Positions 36,954-64,000 of a DNA stretch of 64,000 nt are shown here, in pieces. A program made the translations under genes and the position numbers. How positions within the stretch are numbered: position 1 is the stretch's first letter; each line of letters opens with the position of its first letter. This DNA comes from Litorivicinus sp. (GTDB lineage: Bacteria; Pseudomonadota; Gammaproteobacteria; Pseudomonadales; Litorivicinaceae): the NCBI GenBank assembly GCA_018401755.1, contig JAGYKJ010000007.1:248001-312000 (forward strand), in the 5' to 3' direction. The notes beneath the pieces are model-generated. The model was not told the DNA's origin. It did not search any database and saw nothing but the letters and a program-made list of their open reading frames with translations.

Positions 36954-36993
36954 TGCGAGCGTGGTGGAACTGGTAGACACACAGGACTTAAAA
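36954..36993 (+). repeat. left attachment repeat: truncated 5' half of tRNA-Leu(TAA)
   Basis: Identical to 58187-58226; diverges at the anticodon 3' stem (AAAACCCCCC versus AAAATCCTG). Confidence 0.95.
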
Positions 36994-37048
36994 CCCCCCA
37001 TTTTTCATAAAAATAAGTAAATAAAACAACAACTTAGAAAAATAAAAC

Positions 37049-37092: not shown

Positions 37093-38307
37093 ATGAGCGG
37101 TCGGTTTCGTCATCCCAAGTATCCCAAATTAGTGATTTTTCAGACTCCAAATGGGCAGTCGGAGAACTGGTACGCCGGGTTCTATCACAAGGGTCGTTTT
37201 GTCCGGAAATCGACCGGAACCGATGACAAAAAACAGGCATTGCTGGTGTCTGAATCGTGGTACCTGAAAAACCAGACTCGGATCGTCTCAGGCGATGCAC
37301 CTGAGTCATCCTCACAACGACTATTCCGACACGCAATCAAGTTCGTTCGTGAAGATATGCAGGTGAAACGCAACAGTGAGGCGTATCAAAAGTCATTGCT
37401 CGGACTGTTGAGAGAGACCTACTACATTGCGCAATTCTTTGGGAAATTGCCGATCGACAAAATCACCTCGTCCACATGGGATGACTACCGTCACTTTCTC
37501 CTGAGAAAACGAGCTGAAGAAGAAAAACCAAACCTCTCCGAGAAAAGCATTCATCAGCACAAGATTGCGGTTCAACGGGTTCTGAAAACTGCACGGAAGA
37601 AAGGGTGGACCAATGATTTGGTGCGGTTTGAGGATATCGATCGTCCGAAGCAGGAAACCACCATTCCCAGAATCTTTTTCAACATCGAGGAATATCGCTC
37701 GCTACTGCAAGCATCCAGATCGAACATCAAATATCACCGTGTCTCATCCCCCAACAAAGGGCGGTGGTTGGATGATGCATTGGAACAACATGACTTCATC
37801 ATTTGGATGGCGAATACAGGGATGCGAGTCGGGGAGGCACTTCAACTGGAGTTCCGTCATGTCCGGATCGTCGAACGAGAGATCTTGGTGAATGGTGTGA
37901 AAGAGACTCGTGAAGTGTGTCTTGTGACGGTCACCAAGGGAAAACGAGGGGCAGGGGAAGAAGCAGAGAGTTTTATCGGGGCACCCAACGTGTTCCGACG
38001 AATTTATGAACGACGACAGATCAAGGATCCAAAAACCTCACGAGAACTGGTCTTTGAAAGAAAACACACAACTGGGTTTGCGAGACTCTTGAGAGACTGC
38101 AAACTTGACGAGGACAACTACGGACGAAAACGAGACTTTGTGTCCCTTCGTCACACCTACATCGTGTTCCGACTTCAACAAGGGACAGACATTTATGATG
38201 TCGCAAGAAACACTCGGACCAGTGTTCCGATCATCCAAAAGCACTACGCACGGTTCTTTAAGAAATCCCAGCATCTAAACGATGTTGTCTGGGGCGCAAA
38301 TGAGTAA
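37093..38307 (+). CDS. tyrosine recombinase/phage-type integrase
   Basis: ANTGMRVGEALQLEFRHV (Arg I), LRHTYIVFRLQQG (HxxR), IIQKHYARFF (Tyr); adjacent to left attachment repeat. Confidence 0.93.
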   Translation: MSGRFRHPKYPKLVIFQTPNGQSENWYAGFYHKGRFVRKSTGTDDKKQALLVSESWYLKNQTRIVSGDAPESSSQRLFRHAIKFVREDMQVKRNSEAYQKSLLGLLRETYYIAQFFGKLPIDKITSSTWDDYRHFLLRKRAEEEKPNLSEKSIHQHKIAVQRVLKTARKKGWTNDLVRFEDIDRPKQETTIPRIFFNIEEYRSLLQASRSNIKYHRVSSPNKGRWLDDALEQHDFIIWMANTGMRVGEALQLEFRHVRIVEREILVNGVKETREVCLVTVTKGKRGAGEEAESFIGAPNVFRRIYERRQIKDPKTSRELVFERKHTTGFARLLRDCKLDEDNYGRKRDFVSLRHTYIVFRLQQGTDIYDVARNTRTSVPIIQKHYARFFKKSQHLNDVVWGANE

Positions 38308-38674
38308 TGAACACAAGTATTGGTGGTTGGCAGATCGCATTGAATCTTATGGCAACGGAGTCTTGGAAAAAATGACCAAATCCAAACGCAAAACACAGCA
38401 ACGACTCATCAGAGATCGATACACTGGAAATCCATTGACCGAAAAGGAATGGATAGAAGCGGTGAAGGAAGCAGAAGAGACCGACTATCGGAAGACCGCA
38501 TTTAGGAATGGGTTAGGTCGGTTTCTAAAATCCAAAGGGTTCTTGGTCTTTGCCCTACTTATTTTCCCGCCTTTGGCACTGCTGTCTGGGTGTGCCTATA
38601 ACTACAAGTCCAACACCTCTGTCAGTGGAGAAAGTGGGTCGGTAAATGCGGGTGTCAGTTCCAGTGATGGGTGA
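38300..38674 (+). CDS. hypothetical protein with C-terminal TM/lipobox-like segment
   Basis: MSNEHKYWWLADRIESYGN...FLVFALLIFPPLALLSGCAYNYKSNTSVSGESGSVNAGVSSSDG. Confidence 0.45.
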   Translation: MSNEHKYWWLADRIESYGNGVLEKMTKSKRKTQQRLIRDRYTGNPLTEKEWIEAVKEAEETDYRKTAFRNGLGRFLKSKGFLVFALLIFPPLALLSGCAYNYKSNTSVSGESGSVNAGVSSSDG

Positions 38675-39434: not shown

Positions 39435-39779
39435 TCAACGGCTATATGTCCCGCCACCGCCAAATGCGTTCGGTGTATGGGTCGTAGTTCCGCTGGGGCC
39501 GTTGTAGGTCCCGCCACCGCCAAATGCGTTCGGTGTATGGGTCGTAGTTCCGCTGGGGCCGTTGTAGGTCCCGCCACCGCCAAATGCGTTCGGTGTATAG
39601 GTCGTAGTTCCGCTGGGGCCGTTGTAATTCCCGCCACCGCCAAATGCGTTCGGTGTATAGGTCGTAGTTCCGCTGGGGCCGTTGTAGGTCCCGCCGCCGC
39701 CAAACGCATTTGGGGTATAGACTGTTTGTGCAAATGCAGCCGAACCAACCCAGCAAAGCAAGAAAATGAGATATTTCAT
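39435..39779 (-). CDS. small secreted tandem-repeat protein
   Basis: Signal peptide MKYLIFLLCWVGSAAFAQ then repeats of TPNAFGGGGTYNGPSGTTTY. Confidence 0.6.
   Translation of the reverse strand: MKYLIFLLCWVGSAAFAQTVYTPNAFGGGGTYNGPSGTTTYTPNAFGGGGNYNGPSGTTTYTPNAFGGGGTYNGPSGTTTHTPNAFGGGGTYNGPSGTTTHTPNAFGGGGTYSR
39451..39720. repeat. 60-bp tandem repeat, ~4.5 copies
   Basis: CCGCCACCGCCAAATGCGTTCGGTGTATgGGTCGTAGTTCCGCTGGGGCCGTTGTAggTC repeated with a strict 60-bp period. Confidence 0.96.
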
Positions 39780-43339: not shown

Positions 43340-46300
43340 TCATCTTGATCGCAAGTTAAAGCAGTTATTTCCGGCGACGGTGCCGTTGTCGGCGATGGGT
43401 TTGGCGGCTTGCGGTGGTGGTGGCTCTACATCAATCACATCATCACCCTCCACGTTTTCTGTTGCAGGTAATGCAGTCGCTGGTCCCGATCAATGGTGCG
43501 ATCGCATTTTGTGGATTACGATGGTGACGGCGAACTCGATTTAGACAGGCACTTACGCCTACACCGACGGGGACGGTGCATTCTCACTCACCTCGACAGA
43601 CGCCAATGCGCCAATCGTGGTGACAACGGACTCGACAACAGCGGCTGGTTTCACGATCAATGCGGTAGATACGGCCTCGGATACATTGTTCTTTCTGGAG
43701 TGACTCTCAAAGCACCCAATGGATCTACTGTTGTCACTCCGACGACGACGGTGGCCTATGACCTGATGGAGACCAACGGGCTGACCGAGGCGCAGGTCGC
43801 GACTGCCTTGGGTCTTGATGGGATCTCCATTTTGTCGTTTTTAACCCCTATGCATCGGGTGTGGATGCGGATGATGCGCTAGCGGTCGCGAAGGTTGCAG
43901 CGACTGTACTTGCGACAGTGCAAGCGATCTCTGCTGCGGCCTCAGGGGCTGGGGCGGATGCAGAGGCTGCTGCCGAGGCAGCATTTGCATCGTGCTGTAA
44001 CAGTTGTACAGGCGAAGGCCCTCAGCAGGCGGACAGATCTTGATCTGACCGATACATGACGGTGACTTGGCATCGATCGAGGCGGAGTCGACCCCACAAA
44101 CTTAAGTTCCCTCTCAGGCATTGATGCGACAGCGTTCACCGCACGACGCTGGATATAGCAATGGACCTCTGTGGCATTTTGTGAATCAGCGCTATCACTG
44201 CAGTAACAAACACAGATCTGACCGATTCGGGGCTGAAGGGGGCTATTGCAACAGGGTCGTATTTAGCCACTCAGGGTTGCCACGGCAGCAGCGGCTGAGA
44301 AATCGATCGCGGGGTCTGGATCAGGCTCAATTACTCTGACTGATGCGACCACTGTATCCGCTGCAGCCACGGCTGCTGGTAGTAATGCGGCACCGACAGA
44401 TATCACGCTGTCTGCGACGACAATCGCAGAGAATGCGACTGCACTGACGTTTACGGCAACCAGCACGGATGATACGTCAGCATCCTTCACGTACAGATTA
44501 TCCGGGGCTGATGCGAGTTTCTTTGCCTTAAATGCTTCAACTGGCGTGTTGACTCTGAATGCATCACCTGATTACGAGACCAAGACGTCTTACTCGATCA
44601 TTCTGACGACAGTGATGATGCACTTATCCCGAAGTCCCTACAATGAGTCGTTCACGATTACTGTGACAGATGTCAACGATGCCCCAGTGTTTGCGTCAGC
44701 GACTGGGACTGGGAGTGTTGCTGAGAACGCGGCGATCTCGACGGTGATATACACAGCGTTTGCGACGGATGAAGACAACGATACGTTGACGTATAGCGTG
44801 TCTGGGAACGACGCCTCCTCCATTACGATCGATGCTTCGACTGGTGCTGTCACACTGAACAGTTCGGCGGACTATGAGACGAAGTCGAGCTACAGCTTTA
44901 CGGTGACGGCAACGGATGGAGATGGTGCGACTGATACCCAGGCTGTGACGGTGTCTGTGACGGATGTAAATGAGACCCCTGTATTTGCGTCATCCACGGC
45001 GTCAATCTCCGTCGCTGAAAACTCAGATGTTTCAACAGTTATTTACACAGCCTTTGCCTCGGATGTGGATGGAGATACACTGACTTACAGTCTGACTGGT
45101 GCTGACGATTCTTTATTAACCATAGATCCTGTAACCGGGGAAGTCAGATTCAATGCTTCGCCTGACTACGAGACCAAGAATCAGTATTTGTTTACCGTGA
45201 CTGCCTCTGATGGGGCACTAACAGACACTGTCGATGTCACGCTGGATGTTACGGATGTCAACGATGCCCCAGTGTTTGCGTCAGCGACTGGGACCTGGGA
45301 GTGTTGCTGAGAACGCGGCGATCTCGACGGTGATATACACAGCGTTTGCGACGGATGAAGACAACGATACGTTGACGTATAGCGTGTCTGGGAACGACGC
45401 CTCCTCCATTACGATCGATGCTTCGACTGGTGCTGTCACGCACTGAACAGTTCAGCGGACTATGAGACTGGGGTCGAGCTACAGCTTTACGGTGACGGCA
45501 ACGGATGGAGATGGTGCGACTGATACCCGAGGCTGTGACGGTGTCTGTGACGGATGTAAATGAGGCCCCTGTATTCAGTGGTGATTTGAGTGGGACGAGG
45601 AGCTGAGGATGGTGGATCGATCACCGGGACATTGGTTGCGACGGATCAGGATGGATTGACTGACGGCACGCTGTATACGCTGACGACTGTGGCGACGAGT
45701 GGCGTTGCACCGATTGATACGGTAAGTGGTGCCTGGGCGTATACGCCAAATGAGAACTTCAACGGGACCGACAGTTTTGTAGTGACGCTGACGGATGATT
45801 TGGGAATACCGCGACGCAAACGATTGCGTTGACAGTGACGCCTGTTGACGATGAGGCGACCTGACGGTTACGCCGGATGGGACGTTTGCTGAGGGTGCGA
45901 GGGTCTCGGTGGCAGTCTCTGTGAGCGACATTGACGGTGCGATTAGTTCTGTCGTATATCAGTTAGAGAGCTCATTGGATCAGACAACGTGGACACCGAT
46001 TACTGGGTCATCCGGGACGGCGAGCTCTGGATCGTTTACAGCGAGTTATATGATTCCTGATGACCAAACGTTGGTGGGTCAGTACTTACGGATCAATTTG
46101 ACGTCGACAGACGCACTCGGAGGCACATCTAGCTACGTTGGTACATCGGATCAGAAGGTGGCTAACGTCAACGATGCCCCAGTGTTTGCGTCAGCGACTG
46201 GGACTGGGAGTGTTGCTGAGAACGCGGCGATCTCGACGGTGATATACACAGCGTTTGCGACGGATGAAGACAACGATACGTTGACGTATAGCGTGTCTGG

Positions 46301-49300
46301 GAACGACGCCTCCTCCATTACGATCGATGCTTCGACTGGTGCTGTCACACTGAACAGTTCAGCGGACTATGAGACGAAGTCGAGCTACAGCTTTACGGTG
46401 ACGGCAACGGATGGAGATGGTGCGACTGATACCCAGGCTGTGACGGTGTCTGTGACGGATGTAAATGAGGCCCCTGTATTCAGTGGTGATTTGAGTGGGA
46501 CGGGAGCTGAGGATGGTGGATCGATCACTGGGACATTGGTTGCGACGGATCAGGATGGATTGACTGACGGCACGCTGTATACGCTGACGACTGTGGCGAC
46601 GAGTGGCGTTGCATCGATTGATACGGTAAGTGGTGCCTGGGCGTATACGCCAAATGAGAACTTCAACGGGACCGACAGTTTTGTAGTGACGCTGACGGAT
46701 GATTTGGGGAATACCGCGACGCAAACGATTGCGTTGACAGTGACGCCTGTTGACGATGAGGCGACCTGGACGGTTACGCCGGATGGGACGTTTGCTGAGG
46801 GTGCGAGGGTCTCGGTGGCAGTCTCTGTGAGCGACATTGACGGTGCGATTAGTTCTGTCGTATATCAGTTAGAGAGCTCATTGGATCAGACAACGTGGAC
46901 ACCGATTACTGGGTCATCCGGGACGGCGAGCTCTGGATCGTTTACAGCGAGTTATATGTGATTCCTGATGACCAAACGTTGGTGGGTCAGTACTTACGGA
47001 TCAATTTGACGTCGACAGGCGCACTCGTCGAGGCACATCTAGCTACGCGGGTACATCGGATCAGAAGGTGGCTAACGTCAACGATGCCCCAGTGTTTGCG
47101 TCAGCGACTGGGACTGGGAGTGTTGCTGAGAACGCGGCGATCTCGACGGTGATATACACAGCGTTTGCGACGGATGAAGACAACGACACGTTGACGCACA
47201 GCGTGGTCTGGGAACGACGCCTCCTCCATTACGATCGATGCTTCGACTGGTGCTGTCACACTGAACAGTTCAGCGGACTATGAGACGAGTCGAGCAACAG
47301 CTTTACGGTGACGGCAACGGATGGAGATGGTGCGACTGATACCCAGGCTGTGACGGTGTCTGTGACGGATGTAAATGAGGCCCCTGTATTCAGTGGTGAT
47401 TTGAGTGGGACGGGAGCTGAGGATGGTGGATCAGATCACCGGGACATTGGTTGCGACGGATCAGGATGGATTGACTGACGGCACGCTGTATACGCTGACG
47501 ACTGTGGCGACGAGTGGCGTTGCACCGATTGATACGGTAAGTGGTGCCTGGGCGTATACGCCAAATGAGAACTTCAACGAGGACCGACAGTTTTGTAGTG
47601 ACGCTGACGGATGATTTGGGAATACCGCGACGCAAACGATTGCGTTGACAGTGACGCCTGTTGACGATGAGGCGACCTGACGGTTACGCCGGATGGGACG
47701 TTTGCTGAGGGTGCGAGGGTCTCGGTGGCAGTCTCTGTGAGCGACATTGACGGTGCGATTAGTTCTGTCGTATATCAGTTAGAGAGCCCATTGGATCAAG
47801 ACAACGCGGACACCCGGTTACTGGGTCATCCGGGACGGCGAGCTCTGGATCGTTTACAGCGAGTTATATGGGATCTCCTGGGATGACCAAACGCTGGTGG
47901 GTCAGTACTTTACGGATCAATTTGACGTCGACAGACGCACTCGGAGGCACATCTAAGCGTACGCGGGTACATCAGGATCAGAAGGTGGCTAACGTCGGCG
48001 ATGCCCCAGTGTTTGCGCCAGCGACTGGGACTGGGAGTGTTGCTGAGAGCACGCGGCGATCTCGACGGTGATATACACAGCGTTTGCGACGGATAGAGAA
48101 GACAACGATACGTTGACGTATAGCGTGTCTGGAGCAGCGGCGCCTCTCCATTACGATCGATGCTTCGACTGGTGCTGTCACACTGGGAACAGTTCAGCGG
48201 ACTATGAGACGAAGTCGAGCTACATCTTTGACAGCGGATGGAATGGTGCGACTGATACCCCGAGCTGTGACGGTGTCTGTGACGGATGTAAATGAAAACC
48301 CCTGTGTTTACTTCTTCTGATACTCAGGTCACTAAACTACAAAATTATGAATACCAAATTATTGGGGTCGACGCGGATATGGGGTCTGGATTAACGTTAG
48401 TAGCGTCTCAATCCCCGTCTTGGCTATCCTTTAATGAAGACACACAAACATGATGACTGGTACGCCTGGTAAGATTGAATTTGGGCACACATTCGACCAT
48501 CATTGGTCTTGTCCGTGGAACTAACCAAGTTACTCAATCTTTTGAAGTCGAGGTGGCGAACATATTAGTTTCTATCGCAATAATTATTGACTCTTTTCAG
48601 ACCGAGAATATTTGATTTGGTCGATAATTTGACTTTGTATGATTGGGGCTACTTCAGTAGCGTCCGATTTTGATTATACTTTCAATGGTTTAATGGCTAT
48701 GACGACTATCTTCAACCTTCTGATTTAGTAGGCCCCAGTTTTATCAAGTAACGCCAGATAGTGAATCGTCCATAGATCCGTCTAGCTTTACTGCAGCGAC
48801 TACTAATGATTACGACCTAGATTTATATAATTCTGGCTCGAGCGAGTGGAGTTCTTGGTGATTATTTTTGCGATGATTATTATCTTTTTCTAAGGACAGA
48901 TCAGAACTGATGACTCATCTGTAGATATGGAGATTGGTCCTTATTTACACTTCTAACGCAGCTAGATAGAACACTGAAAAAGGGCTTCAAGTAATCTGTA
49001 TTGATGTGGATGCATTGAATGGTGCATCCAGTCATTATCAAAAACTTTTCAATAACACTTTTTATTCACTGACCGGCAGCGATGTGAAATTTATGGTACT
49101 CAACTTGAGGCTATTACTTCTCGGTGGTTATCGCTTAATGACTATCTTGCCTACTGGCGACTCCTCACGAAGACGATCACACATTGGCGGGTTGTTAGCA
49201 GTATCGATAGCAGGGTCCCCAGCGTACAGAGAAGTCGAGACGTTGGATTTTCTTAGCGCAGCTTAATGTTGCCACAATAATTCAAGCTGCACCAGAAATA

Positions 49301-58133: not shown

Positions 58134-58187
58134 AACCAGTTTCTTGTCTAGTAAAATTCACAAAAAAAGTTAATAAAATCAAGCACT

Positions 58188-58274
58188 GCGAGCGTGGTGG
58201 AACTGGTAGACACACAGGACTTAAAATCCTGAGGCAGAAATGCCGTGCGGGTTCGACTCCCGCCGCTCGTACCA
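58188..58274 (+). tRNA. tRNA-Leu(TAA), intact
   Basis: 87 nt, acceptor GCGAGCG/CGCTCGT, anticodon loop CTTAAAA, variable arm, GGTTCGACTCC T-loop, encoded CCA. Confidence 0.97.
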
Positions 58275-59620: not shown

Positions 59621-59694
59621 GGCGCGTTGGCAGAGTGGTTATGCAGCGGATTGCAAATCCGTGGACATCGGTTCGATTCCGGTACGCGCCTCCA
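59621..59694 (+). tRNA. tRNA-Cys(GCA), intact
   Basis: 74 nt; GGCGCGTTGGCAGAGTGGTTATGCAGCGGATTGCAAATCCGTGGACATCGGTTCGATTCCGGTACGCGCCTCCA. Confidence 0.97.
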
Positions 59695-59908
59695 TATCAT
59701 AAACATCTGATATCCTGATAGTTTTATATTTTGGCGCTGGGTTTTATGTGTATGGCCTTAACCATCACTCCCGAAGCTAGTATCCATATGTTGCGTTGTA
59801 TTCGTTAAAACGGGTTGGAACCCCAAAGACACCGTCAACGGCTCGGTATACGGGTTTGCCAATTAATGAGTTGATTACTCGTTTGATAGAGTCATGTTGC
59901 ATTTAATT

Positions 59909-59931
59909 CACTTGTTGCACTTATTTCACTT
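59909..59931. promoter_or_regulatory. three CACTT iterons with 9-bp period upstream of cassette 1 operon
   Basis: CACTTGTTG CACTTATTT CACTT at 59909, 59918, 59927. Confidence 0.4.
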
Positions 59932-59980
59932 AAATTGTATGGTCAGCAGACTAGTTTGAGCCAGAGTGAGAAGAGTACCG

Positions 59981-60463
59981 ATGGCATTAAGAATGCAAGC
60001 GAAGACGGATGCGTCAGAGCTACTATCACATCCTTTGAGTGCAAAGGATAAAGAGCAAATTCTACGGGCTATCCAGAGTTTGCCAGCGTTGGTCGATTCG
60101 ACATGTCGCGTATCGATCGCCTTGAGCCAAGGAAAAAAACTGTCTGAGACCGTTGAAGTGCCAGCGATTGCTCTCAGCTTGTTACGTGATGTACTCGAAG
60201 CCCTGTCTGAAGATCGCTCCATTGTTACCATGTCTTCAAGCAAAGAAATGACAACAGTCGAGGCGGCAGACTTTCTGAATGTGTCTCGGCCATTTGTGAT
60301 TAAAGAAATTGAAGCAGGTCGTTTGCCGCATCGTAAAGTTGGTTCACATCGGCGCATCGCGTTCAGTGACCTTGTAGGCTATGCGCGAAACATGCGTAAC
60401 AATCAGGAAAGCGCACTTGACCGAATGGCGATTAACGCGCAGGAGCTGGGGCTTACGTATTGA
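59981..60463 (+). CDS. excisionase-type HTH DNA-binding protein, putative antitoxin (cassette 1)
   Basis: MTTVEAADFLNVSRPFVIKEIEAGRLPHRKVGSHRRIAFSDLVGYARNM; overlaps downstream PIN gene by 4 nt. Confidence 0.78.
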   Translation: MALRMQAKTDASELLSHPLSAKDKEQILRAIQSLPALVDSTCRVSIALSQGKKLSETVEVPAIALSLLRDVLEALSEDRSIVTMSSSKEMTTVEAADFLNVSRPFVIKEIEAGRLPHRKVGSHRRIAFSDLVGYARNMRNNQESALDRMAINAQELGLTY

Positions 60464-61035
60464 GACATCGATGCACTGCTGTGCTTGACGCATGCGTGCT
60501 GTTTCCTTTGGCCGTCGCAGATGCATTGATCAGTGTAGCGGTTGAGAGGGCGTTCCAAGCGAAATGGACAACTACTATCGAGTGCGAGTGGATTGATGCT
60601 CTAGAACGGCAACGGCCTGATTTGATTGGAAGGCTTGGCTATCGGCGTGATTGCATGCGAGAGGCTATCCCTGATTGGATGGTTCCTGAAGAGCTCTGGG
60701 CTCAGGTCGAATTGAACCAGACATTGCCCGATTCCAATGACATGCATGTTTTTGCCGCAGCAATCGCTTGTGATGCCGACTACATTGTGACCTTTAATCT
60801 GAAGGACTTTCCGGCTACACAACTCGAACCATACGGGATCGTTGCTATCGATCCGGATCATTTCCTAATGACACAGCTCGAGATCCATCAGGCCGTTGTC
60901 GTTTCAGCATTTCGTGGAATGCGATCCAGGCGCAAAAGCCCAAGACATGATGTTGATGAGTTTCTTACAGTCATCTCCGCAAATGGGCTGCCTATGACTG
61001 CGGAGGGTCTTGCCGACTTCGTTGACGACTTATAG
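60460..61035 (+). CDS. PIN-domain protein, putative toxin (cassette 1)
   Basis: AVLDACVLFPLAVADALISVAVE...LPDSNDMHVFAAAIACDADYIVTFNLKDFP. Confidence 0.82.
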   Translation: MRHRCTAVLDACVLFPLAVADALISVAVERAFQAKWTTTIECEWIDALERQRPDLIGRLGYRRDCMREAIPDWMVPEELWAQVELNQTLPDSNDMHVFAAAIACDADYIVTFNLKDFPATQLEPYGIVAIDPDHFLMTQLEIHQAVVVSAFRGMRSRRKSPRHDVDEFLTVISANGLPMTAEGLADFVDDL

Positions 61036-61087
61036 CGATTCACAGATTAAGCCAATGACTCAAAAGTAGACATGGTGTGCTACATCC

Positions 61088-61188
61088 TGTAGCGCACCTT
61101 TATTTTTGTCAATAAATTCAATTATCTAGATGGAATTCAAGCTTTTGCAAATCCGTGGACATCGGTTCGATTCCGGTACGCGCCTCCA
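61088..61188 (+). repeat. 101-bp cassette boundary element, copy A (57-bp leader + tRNA-Cys 3' 44 bp)
   Basis: TGTAGC...TTTATTTTT...CAA...ATGG...CAAGCT then 44 bp identical to 59651-59694. Confidence 0.93.
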
Positions 61189-61323
61189 TGCCTTTTAGAG
61201 TTTTTGACTGCAAAATTTTCTCATTTGATTTATTCCTAATTACCTACGACCTACAGATGATCTCAGATTCTGCATGGTTTGACCGGTGCCATCGTTAATG
61301 GCCTGATTAATCTCTGTTCGCAA

Positions 61324-61707
61324 TCACAGAGATGCTCTGAACGTGGTCAACTGCAGATCTTTGATGCATTTGAAATGCTTTATGTTTCCGCTTAGAAGTA
61401 CGCGGTTCTCCTCGACTGCGGTGGCTGCGACTAGCGCGTCGGCAACGCCAGTTCCATGCGATGACGCATATTCTTCAACGTAAATTGAGGCTCGATAACC
61501 AATTCTTTCTGACAGTGGTAATGTTTCAAAACAAAATTCCTTCAAGAATCCCTTGATCTGGTGTGCCTCCCGCTTATTCTTGGCGCCCTGTAGCAGTTCC
61601 ATCAGGGTTACCAGAGAGATCGCTCGATCTGAGGCATCATCAATAGCGACCGCAGCCTCCACGCTTCCACGCAGATACCAAATGAGAACATCCGTATCAA
61701 AGATCAT
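61324..61707 (-). CDS. vapC: VapC-type PIN-domain ribonuclease toxin (cassette 2)
   Basis: MIFDTDVLIWYLRGSVEAAVAI...LMELLQGAKNKREAHQIKGFLK...GTGVADALVAATAVEENRVLLSGNIKHFKCI. Confidence 0.87.
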   Translation of the reverse strand: MIFDTDVLIWYLRGSVEAAVAIDDASDRAISLVTLMELLQGAKNKREAHQIKGFLKEFCFETLPLSERIGYRASIYVEEYASSHGTGVADALVAATAVEENRVLLSGNIKHFKCIKDLQLTTFRASL

Positions 61708-61954
61708 CGTAGCGCTTTCGTCTGAGTAGGGCGACTTGATCAGTTGCGCTGGTTTCGTCAATTTTATTTGCAGCCCACATGCCAAATGCTTTGTGCTTAG
61801 AGGCAGATAACTGCGTCGTTTCTGATGTTGTATTGATGGGGTTCATGATGGCGGCAGGTTTCCCTCTGTAGAGCACTGTCACCTTTTCTTTGCGATTAAT
61901 CGCATTGATGATTTCCTTAGATTTCTTTCGCAAATCAACAAATGATGCTTCCAT
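61697..61954 (-). CDS. Phd/YefM-type antitoxin (cassette 2)
   Basis: MEASFVDLRKKSKEIINAINRKEKVTVLYRGKPAAIMNPI; overlaps vapC start. Confidence 0.78.
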   Translation of the reverse strand: MEASFVDLRKKSKEIINAINRKEKVTVLYRGKPAAIMNPINTTSETTQLSASKHKAFGMWAANKIDETSATDQVALLRRKRYDDL

Positions 61955-62148
61955 GACAGACTCCCTATGTGTGCATTTAAAGTATACACTCGAAAGGAAA
62001 ATACTGAAGAGTCAATCAAAGCTTTCGATGGCGAGCGCGAGTTAGAGACATTCGATTCGGGTGTTACCTTATGTCCCATAGAGTCTATTACTGAAGCGTG
62101 TTTCGGTGGCGGGAGTTGCCGAAATCGGGCCTGATTGCGCACAGACTC

Positions 62149-62249
62149 TGTAGCATAATTTTATTTTTACTAATTAATACAATGCTTGATATGGTATGCA
62201 AGCTTTTGCAAATCCGTGGACATCGGTTCGATTCCGGTACGCGCCTCCA
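62149..62249 (+). repeat. 101-bp cassette boundary element, copy B
   Basis: Same 57-bp leader pattern; 44 bp identical to tRNA-Cys 3' end at 62206-62249. Confidence 0.93.
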
Positions 62250-62306
62250 CCTATACGTTGATCAAACTCACATACCCGGCAAATCCTCGGGTACTAAAGC
62301 GAGCTT

Positions 62307-62576
62307 TCAAATTCGCCCCGCCATTTTTAGGGCCGCACGCAAAGTCTCATTGATTCGTGTTTGCCAGCCATCACCGCTTGCCCGTAATGCAGCCAATACA
62401 TCTGCGTCGAGGCGTAACTTTACAGGCTCCTTGGTTGACGCTGACTTCGGTCTACCTCGGGTTTTGATTACTTTGCCTTCGTACAGATCAGCCGTCTCGA
62501 AGAACTCGGAAGTCAGCTCGGGAGCATCATCGGCATCAATCCAAGTGCTTTGCGTAGAGTGCTTTTTCGCGGTCAT
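62307..62576 (-). CDS. brnA: BrnA antitoxin (cassette 3)
   Basis: KTRGRPKSASTKEPVKLRLDADVLAALRASGDGWQTRINETLRAAL. Confidence 0.9.
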   Translation of the reverse strand: MTAKKHSTQSTWIDADDAPELTSEFFETADLYEGKVIKTRGRPKSASTKEPVKLRLDADVLAALRASGDGWQTRINETLRAALKMAGRI

Positions 62577-62808
62577 TGGCTTTCCTCATACTAATGATTC
62601 GGCGGGTCTCGCCGCGGGGCGTCCAGACCATAACAATCACGTTGGCGTCTAACCAACCGACTGTAATGAATCGATCCTCTTTGTAGTCTTGTCGCTTGTC
62701 TTGACCCGTGAAATGAATTCCACTAAATACATCTCCTGCCTGAGCGAAGTCCAAGCCCCGCTCAAGCAGAGTTTTCTCTCTTTTGATCGGGTCGAATTCA
62801 AGATTCAT
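62536..62808 (-). CDS. brnT: BrnT toxin (cassette 3)
   Basis: MNLEFDPIKREKTLLERGLDFAQAGDVFSGIHFTGQDKRQDYKEDRFITVGWLDANVIVMVWTPRGETRRIISMRKANDREKALY. Confidence 0.92.
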   Translation of the reverse strand: MNLEFDPIKREKTLLERGLDFAQAGDVFSGIHFTGQDKRQDYKEDRFITVGWLDANVIVMVWTPRGETRRIISMRKANDREKALYAKHLD

Positions 62809-62810
62809 AT

Positions 62811-62832
62811 AATTAATGTACACCCATTAATT
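62811..62832. promoter_or_regulatory. palindromic operator upstream of brnT
   Basis: AATTAATG-TACACC-CATTAATT, perfect 8-bp arms, 2 bp upstream of brnT start. Confidence 0.65.
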
Positions 62833-62944
62833 GTTCGGTCAAGCGCTGTTATTGTAAATAGGCGATTCAGGGCTCACGAGGACGCTTTTCTTCGGAGTGC
62901 ATTCGCCCATTCCGTAAATAATTCAAGTTCTTATTTGCACATTC

Positions 62945-63045
62945 CATAGCACAATTTTATTTTTCCTCATTAATACAAGTGGTTACATGGTGTGCAAGCT
63001 ATTGCAAATCCGTGGACATCGGTTTGATTCCGGTGCGCGCCTCCA
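62945..63045 (+). repeat. 101-bp cassette boundary element, copy C
   Basis: Same leader pattern; 44-bp tRNA-Cys 3' segment at 63002-63045 with two substitutions. Confidence 0.92.
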
Positions 63046-63137
63046 TTGATGTAAGCCACCATCTTTTGTATTAGGTGCGATCTCTTCGCTCCAGCCATTG
63101 ACCGCGTGAGGTAATGCCCAATTCATCGCGATCGGTA

Positions 63138-63431
63138 TCAGGCAGCAGAGTGGGGTTTGGCGGTCAACTCAAGGCCTAGGGATTGCATCACAGCGAGCGT
63201 GGTCTTCAGCGTTGGATTTCCCTCTTCGCTAAACGAGCGGTATAGCTGTTCGCGGGAGAGTCCGGTTTCATGGGCGATCTGGCTCATGCCTTTGGCTCTT
63301 GCTACAACACCCAAAGCCTTCGCAATATAACTACTGTCCCCAGTCTCAAGGGCATCCGCGATGAAGACCTCAATCGCCTCTGGTGAGTCCAAGGCAGTTG
63401 CAGGATCAAACTCGGTTAATTTTTTGTTCAT
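63138..63431 (-). CDS. HigA-type addiction module antidote, apparently without adjacent toxin (cassette 4)
   Basis: MNKKLTEFDPATALDSPEAIEVFIADALETGDSSYIAKALGVVARAKGMSQIAHETGLSREQLYRSFSEEGNPTLKTTLAVMQSLGLEL. Confidence 0.8.
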   Translation of the reverse strand: MNKKLTEFDPATALDSPEAIEVFIADALETGDSSYIAKALGVVARAKGMSQIAHETGLSREQLYRSFSEEGNPTLKTTLAVMQSLGLELTAKPHSAA

Positions 63432-63791
63432 TTTTACGCCCACTTTCGGAAGGTCTCAGTTTGTTTGATTTGAAGCGCAGTGCAATTGTAGTTTATAAAT
63501 CACAGTTAGTGAAATTTGGTTTTCGCATCTGGATGTAAATGGAGCTCGAGTGGCTCGGTGGGATGGCTTGCCAAGGAGGAAAGCGACGGTTGTTTAAGTG
63601 ACCGAAGGCGCAAAAATCAGGCCTAGTCTTTAAAACACTCCTTACGCGAAGCGCCAAAAATCGATGCGTATTCGCCAGAGGTGTAGTGATCTACGCCCAG
63701 CCGGTCATCGAGGCCTGGGACATCTTCACCAAGGCTCGCTCGATTGTTGTATTGTCTCGCCTAAGCAAAGAGAACTGGGAAAGGCGTTTCC

Positions 63792-64000
63792 GATGGACTT
63801 CAACCTCATTGTCGACAGTTTGCAACGGGCGATCCCGGGTCTGTCTGCCGTCTATGTGTTTGGCAGCCAAGCAACGAGTGGTGCGGGGCCTGAAAGCGAT
63901 CTTGATTTGGCAATCCTTGCAGATGGACCGCTAGATGCGGTTCGTCTATGGGAAGTGGCTTCAGCTTTAGAGGGTGTCGCAATGTGCCCTGTTGATTTGC
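63792..64000 (+). CDS. MNT-domain nucleotidyltransferase, MntA-like antitoxin, truncated by window end
   Basis: MDFNLIVDSLQRAIPGLSAVYVFGSQATSGAGPESDLDLAILADGPLDAVRLWEVASALEGVAMCPVDL (frame not in ORF track because it is open at window end). Confidence 0.82.

Follow-up and report, generated by a model that had tools for sequence, protein, structure and literature searches.

How did three small toxin-antitoxin (TA) modules come to line up after a tRNA gene, with a copy of that tRNA's 3' half at the end of each and no integrase accompanying them? This question is raised by the tRNA-Cys locus of Litorivicinus sp. (assembly GCA_018401755.1; genome of 2.19 Mb, 99% complete). The stretch that we analysed, hereafter the window, is the 64,000 nt of contig JAGYKJ010000007.1 from 248001 to 312000 (G000:C6:248001-312000 in our genome set). 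Our results suggested that the segments behind tRNA-Cys are probably integrase-less mobile cassettes, which a recombinase acting in trans would join to the anticodon loop of the tRNA. A preliminary description of this DNA had proposed integrase-less cassettes with a site at one end and a tRNA gene as target, and this was borne out by the conservation of the site and by exchange of cassettes between species.

The layout given in that description, namely tRNA-Cys followed by three segments that each hold a TA pair and end in a 44-bp copy of the tRNA 3' end, agreed with our coordinates and Pfam assignments (Table 1). The three repeats, of about 101-108 bp, end at 61188, 62249 and 63045 and are 81-89% identical to one another. 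The last 44 bp of each correspond to the tRNA-Cys 3' end (exactly in two of the three, with two substitutions in the other), and the anticodon loop (TTGCAAATCC) is exactly where the resemblance to the tRNA sets in. The site pattern matched three times in the window, compared to zero matches in 100 dinucleotide shuffles. As had been claimed, the complete cassettes carry no integrase: a PF00589 search found no tyrosine recombinase in any cassette of the tRNA-Cys array. The fourth segment has the gene content first described, with HepT identified by Pfam just beyond the window end, after the MntA-like gene; but no closing site was found in the sequence read beyond 63045, including that past the window, and therefore we do not count this segment as a cassette. 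When G001 and G010 were compared with the window's genome, the distance from tRNA-Cys to the shared backbone was about 22.8 kb in the latter versus about 1.1 kb in G001.

The site itself was defined by an alignment of 17 sites from seven genomes, 8 at tRNA-Cys and 9 at tRNA-Phe. All aligned sites share one order: two arm repeats, GCACAY-N6-GCACAC (12 bp apart; consensus GCACAYTCTGTAGCACAC), then a spacer, the anticodon loop and the tRNA 3' half. Between the end of the arm and the loop lie 47 bp in 8/8 Cys sites; the Phe sites with a retained core have 56 bp there, except for one with 55, so that Cys and Phe spacers differ by roughly one helical turn. Without its last 12 nt, the spacer is 57-91% identical among Cys sites and 41-82% among Phe sites. 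The constant length at each tRNA, together with the difference of about one turn, points to a protein complex that would bridge arm and core. Lambda-type attachment sites have an arm composed of arm repeats, a bendable spacer and a core, and by analogy the anatomy of our site resembles one such arm. In the Phe cores, an inverted repeat (ACACG-CCA-TTGAAAA-TCC-TCGTGT) surrounds the loop.

All sites have the same orientation, and the reversed motif had zero matches across the genus genomes. Conservation is confined to one end of the cassette: the right site is conserved, and the left end consists of the tRNA 3' half alone. Beyond it the cassette starts have nothing notable in common, save in pairs with related or shared cargo, and because these starts are not conserved the site is one-sided. 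The array had been called integron-like. The one-sided cassette site fits this name, but the site is not attC-like, because neither strand folds: for both strands of six sites, single-strand folding was no better than that of shuffles (z -0.7 to +1.9). The likeness is thus an analogy. An RNA-family scan passed only the tRNA, the sub-threshold transfer-messenger RNA matches being taken as chance. Some copies of the site (G012, P3a and P7) have decayed.

Some further observations concern the leader, that is, the part of the site before the tRNA half. Similar leader types stand beside different cargo, as if the leader had been swapped apart from the cassette. At L109:10315-10544 and L107:7008-7237 the cassette ends are identical, with abrupt divergence at GTAGCACACCGA. 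A copy of the tRNA-Cys 3' end with a different leader lies at 7832-7875 of L027 (G020:C30), after an inositol-type catabolic operon; no integrase is evident in the 7.8 kb upstream, and this copy is possibly a second site type.

Six other genomes have the leader, and nowhere was it found on an element that bears an integrase. In GTDB, a scan of genome_contigs gave 14 matches; the genuine ones, all from a single group of gammaproteobacteria, are in HIMB30, SRR4030062_bin.37, Ww246 and a North Sea 'Litoricola' metagenome-assembled genome (MAG). The ten matches outside the genus were rejected as chance, the sequence after the core being unrelated. HIMB30 belongs to the OM252 clade, Litoricolaceae in GTDB, proposed as 'Ca. 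Halomarinus' (PMC8269220). A model built from seven sites and run over 34 genomes recovered more sites, including five on another contig of the window's genome. When the arm motif plus the T-rich start of the spacer was sought in 392 genomes of the order, it was confined to this Litorivicinaceae genus; the single match outside it had three mismatches and was taken for chance. Several draft contigs break off at the 3' end of tRNA-Phe or next to a site. This would be expected of assemblies interrupted by these repeats, and such arrays are therefore probably undercounted.

The window's genome holds a second array, larger than that at tRNA-Cys: a 20-kb array (C5:304766-325036) downstream of tRNA-Phe (C5:325036-325111, minus strand), whose units are listed in Table 1. 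No PF00589 protein was found within it. The unit of about 10 kb with genes like those for pyrroloquinoline quinone (PQQ) biosynthesis ends in a different junction and was therefore not counted as closed by the shared site. A 479-bp duplication (95%) at G000:C5:311474-311952 and 322689-323167 holds the start of the helix-turn-helix (HTH) antitoxin cassette twice. TA cassettes had been presented as the cargo of the system. This held for the tRNA-Cys array, but elsewhere the same site is used by metabolic operons of 8-16 kb.

Comparison of the genomes has shown the transfer of cassettes between species, and their order and content vary. A counterpart of the BrnTA cassette in Ww246 (G010) is 91% identical, with a backbone identity of 66-76% at the XerD locus; BrnTA stands directly after tRNA-Cys in G010 and third in the window's genome. 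Similarly, G002 (listed as North Sea MAG QXYM01000118; backbone 68-75%) has a VapBC cassette with 90% identity to that of the window. At one chromosomal junction G010 has BrnTA and G002 has VapBC, the two genomes being 93% identical at the XerD locus. At tRNA-Phe, G002 and G015 share, at 99.3% identity, an 8.9-kb cassette that encodes a Urt-like branched-chain/urea-type transporter and formamidase; their flanks are at 67-70%. Note that G015 has a tRNA-proximal 3' half of donor type and that its distal half shows the GGCGG form known from the tRNA-Phe of other congeners, as a crossover in the anticodon loop would give. A 16.3-kb hydroxyproline/proline unit of HIMB30 is also present in G012, there with a decayed site.

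These comparisons suggest how a cassette would move. It comprises its cargo (one TA pair or a whole metabolic operon) and a recombination site at the right end only. A tyrosine recombinase supplied in trans, aided by a DNA-bending protein such as IHF or HU, would join the circular cassette to the anticodon loop of the tRNA; the host genome has three HU/IHF-family genes. The cassette's own tRNA 3' half would restore the tRNA gene and the displaced half would be left within the far-end site; the array would thus grow outward from the tRNA. The TA cargo probably stabilises the cassettes, as proposed for superintegrons.

A trans-acting tyrosine recombinase had been part of the preliminary description, and none was found. 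In the genomes searched, none of the units that the 17 sites close contains a PF00589 protein, and of about 13 distinct units none has an integrase. The window's genome encodes only XerC, XerD, a 404-amino-acid (aa) enzyme and a P4-type enzyme, none in or beside the arrays. The 404-aa recombinase (37093-38307) was rejected as helper since it is probably part of a tRNA-Leu island of its own and the congeners searched yielded no close relative of it; the P4-type enzyme adjoins tRNA-Ser. In the genus, tRNA-integrated elements that bear an integrase are abundant, and the best-motivated candidate helper is the IntPhe-like family (Table 1). Against it, its elements carry no leader and the family is absent from the window's genome. 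Its related tyrosine integrases lie directly downstream of tRNA-Phe, tRNA-Leu (TAA) and tRNA-Gly (TCC) in different species of the one genus, a pattern of target switching between tRNAs. In IMG/VR the leader pattern gave chance matches only, and the arm motif, the Phe core and IntPhe gave zero; two matches had the Cys core, a number about that expected by chance. The phage and plasmid matches examined were accounted for by the tRNA half. No integrative and conjugative or integrative and mobilizable element (ICE or IME) with this leader was found in the genus, the order sample or IMG/VR. A 694-aa serine recombinase protein sits in a 12.5-kb contig rich in insertion sequences.

Several points weigh against mobile cassettes served in trans. 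Recombination and excised circles are postulated. No recombinase bearing this site was found, and in G002 and G010, two carriers with nearly complete genomes, XerC/XerD-type proteins are the only tyrosine recombinases; moreover, the tyrosine integrases associated with tRNA-Phe, -Leu and -Gly in the genus have no such leader beside them. Finally, the identity between G002 and G015 has its limit in the arm motif instead of the anticodon loop, and therefore at least one exchange may have taken place inside the leader, by homologous recombination or by a helper acting between sites. That breakpoint, the similar leader types beside different cargo and the carriers without a helper gene would all suit homologous recombination alone, through natural transformation or transducing particles, between the repeats of about 100 bp or the tRNA 3' halves, with no present site-specific recombinase. 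We consider this improbable, since it leaves unexplained the invariant length of a spacer whose sequence varies, the arm motifs common to two tRNAs and the start of identity exactly at the anticodon loop, and since homologous recombination across species would be inefficient with repeats this short.

The units could also be relics resembling cis-mobilizable elements (CIMEs): once integrase-bearing tRNA islands that lost the integrase end, were stacked by accretion and are now immobile. Integrase-bearing elements are common at many tRNAs of the genus, some sites are decayed, as said, and Dehalococcoides provides known cases of tandem islands without an integrase (PMC3146451). However, such an origin would have to have left all of the about 13 units without an integrase, and it fits poorly with the constrained spacing of the site, with compact TA units of 0.8-1.5 kb that recur whole in other species and with a transfer as recent as the 99.3% identity implies; it is unlikely, if less so than homologous recombination alone. 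Very improbable is that the host XerC/XerD moves the cassettes, as in pdif modules. These enzymes are the sole tyrosine recombinases in two carriers, and pdif modules are recombinase-less and can hold TA genes, but the gammaproteobacterial dif consensus matched the sites with 12-15 mismatches of 28, the same as shuffled sequence, and the core is a tRNA anticodon stem-loop. Cassettes moved in trans thus remain the reading that we prefer. A bolder form of it, which we regard as doubtful, is a genus-specific system in which two tRNA genes play the part of attI, receiving the cassettes, and a dedicated helper, as yet unrecognised, is maintained in the population and acts on both; it would be a separately evolved functional counterpart of the superintegron.

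The preliminary description had known of no system with this layout, but Dehalococcoides ssrA islands, additive flexible islands, CIMEs and pdif modules provide precedents. The closest are the ssrA islands of Dehalococcoides, 31 in number, of which 15 lack the integration module and were called possible cis-mobilizable elements; 16 have the serine integrase DsiB, the direct repeat is 20 bp and the cargo is reductive dehalogenases (PMC3146451). As occurs here, units follow an RNA gene in tandem and each ends in a copy of the 3' end of that gene, with a conserved motif (15 bp there) just upstream of the repeat (PMC3146451). In contrast, all units here are without integrase, have arm repeats at a fixed spacing and carry mostly single-TA cargo. 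The excerpts available for the additive flexible islands of Alteromonas (PMC4119200) and Methylophilaceae fGI-2 (PMC10872708) likewise report insertion at a tRNA gene, repeated tRNA 3' ends, units of 330 bp or more and gain and loss of cassettes, but describe no site architecture, no site shared by two tRNAs and no TA-cassette arrays. Tycheposons are also marine and tRNA-anchored with metabolic cargo, but in the excerpt available they have a tyrosine recombinase and span 4-200 kb (PMC10872708), and the units here have no recombinase.

The best functional analogues of the recombinase-less cassettes are pdif modules and clusters of attC sites lacking integron integrases (CALINs). CALINs are integrase-less arrays mobilised in trans (PMC11389934). 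The Acinetobacter pdif (dif) modules are also recombinase-less and moved in trans, and some carry TA genes, but they use XerCD dif-like sites, are mainly plasmid-borne and involve no tRNA; here there is no dif match. In integrons and superintegrons, too, compact cassettes that often carry TA genes form arrays and have their site at one end; unlike integrons, our arrays have no IntI and no foldable attC, and their target is a tRNA gene. As in CIMEs, which are att-flanked, and in accretion with ICEs and IMEs, units without integration or transfer genes are stacked at one site, but here there is no adjacent ICE/IME helper and no conserved left end, and the units go down to 0.8 kb. What appears to be new, judging from these comparisons, is the combination of single-TA-pair units, a site of conserved spacing shared by two tRNA genes and the absence of integrases from all units. 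If our reading is right, a superintegron hallmark, the capture and stacking of single TA modules, would occur without an integron, with tRNA genes as landing sites. It would also provide a route without a recombinase of its own for very small genes and for operons (urea transport, hydroxyproline use, PQQ) among marine bacterioplankton.

Table 1. Features of the tRNA-Cys array (window positions), units of the tRNA-Phe array and loci of IntPhe-like integrases
Feature	Position	Strand	Size	Basis or remark
tRNA-Cys(gca), target gene	59621..59694	+		ARAGORN
Inferred crossover, anticodon loop of tRNA-Cys	59651-59657	+		site-copy identity begins at 59651
Cassette 1, HTH + PIN pair	59695..61188	+	1494 bp	ends in site 1
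HTH_17 protein, putative antitoxin	59966..60463	+	165 aa	PF12728 7e-11
PIN_3 protein, putative toxin	60460..61035	+	191 aa	PF13470 3e-6
Recombination site 1	61080..61188	+		arm 61080-61097, 47-bp spacer 61098-61144, tRNA-Cys 3' half 61145-61188
Cassette 2, Phd/VapC	61189..62249	+	1061 bp	ends in site 2
PIN-domain VapC-like toxin	61324..61785	-	153 aa	PF01850 1e-10
Phd/YefM-like antitoxin	61697..61954	-	85 aa	PF02604 4e-4, below curated cut-off
Recombination site 2	62141..62249	+		arm 62141-62158, spacer 62159-62205, tRNA 3' half 62206-62249
Cassette 3, BrnTA	62250..63045	+	796 bp	ends in site 3
BrnA antitoxin	62307..62576	-	89 aa	PF14384 1e-22
BrnT toxin	62536..62823	-	95 aa	PF04365 9e-21
Recombination site 3	62937..63045	+		arm 62937-62954, spacer 62955-63001, tRNA 3' half 63002-63045 (2 substitutions)
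Fourth segment	63046..64000	+		HI1420/HigA-like antitoxin 63138-63443(-), MntA-like nucleotidyltransferase from 63664(+)
tRNA-Phe unit, NYN nuclease			1108 bp	matches PADLOC model HEC-09
tRNA-Phe unit, HigBA			801 bp	
tRNA-Phe unit, HTH/MqsA-like antitoxin				
tRNA-Phe unit, PQQ-biosynthesis-like genes			~10 kb	radical SAM/SPASM, PqqB-like lactamase fold, TENA/PqqC
tRNA-Phe unit, formamidase			3.9 kb	
tRNA-Phe unit, HigB/HI1420			852 bp	
tRNA-Phe unit, ParDE			1073 bp	
tRNA-Phe unit, PrlF/YhaV			about 1.3 kb	
IntPhe-like integrase family	L165:2836-3969, L167:1813-2985, L184:8065-9276, L182:8867-10069, L188:6283-6813, L209:8748-9248			

Elsewhere in the window, a 43-nt copy of the tRNA-Leu 5' part (36954-36996, 98% to 58187-58229) lies about 96 bp before the gene for the 404-aa recombinase, a divergent tyrosine recombinase. 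The region 36954-58229 is probably a separate 21-kb tRNA-Leu island, which duplicates the 5' end of the tRNA rather than the 3' end. Within it, 275 bp (38226-38500) that span the end of the recombinase gene and the following sequence are 99.6% identical to G000:C5:6243-6517. A tandem series of repeats, each about 910 bp long and with 87-99% identity to one another, occupies 44662-48317, and 60-bp tandem repeats at 39445-39720 encode a PNAFGGGGxYxGPSGTTTYT-like peptide.

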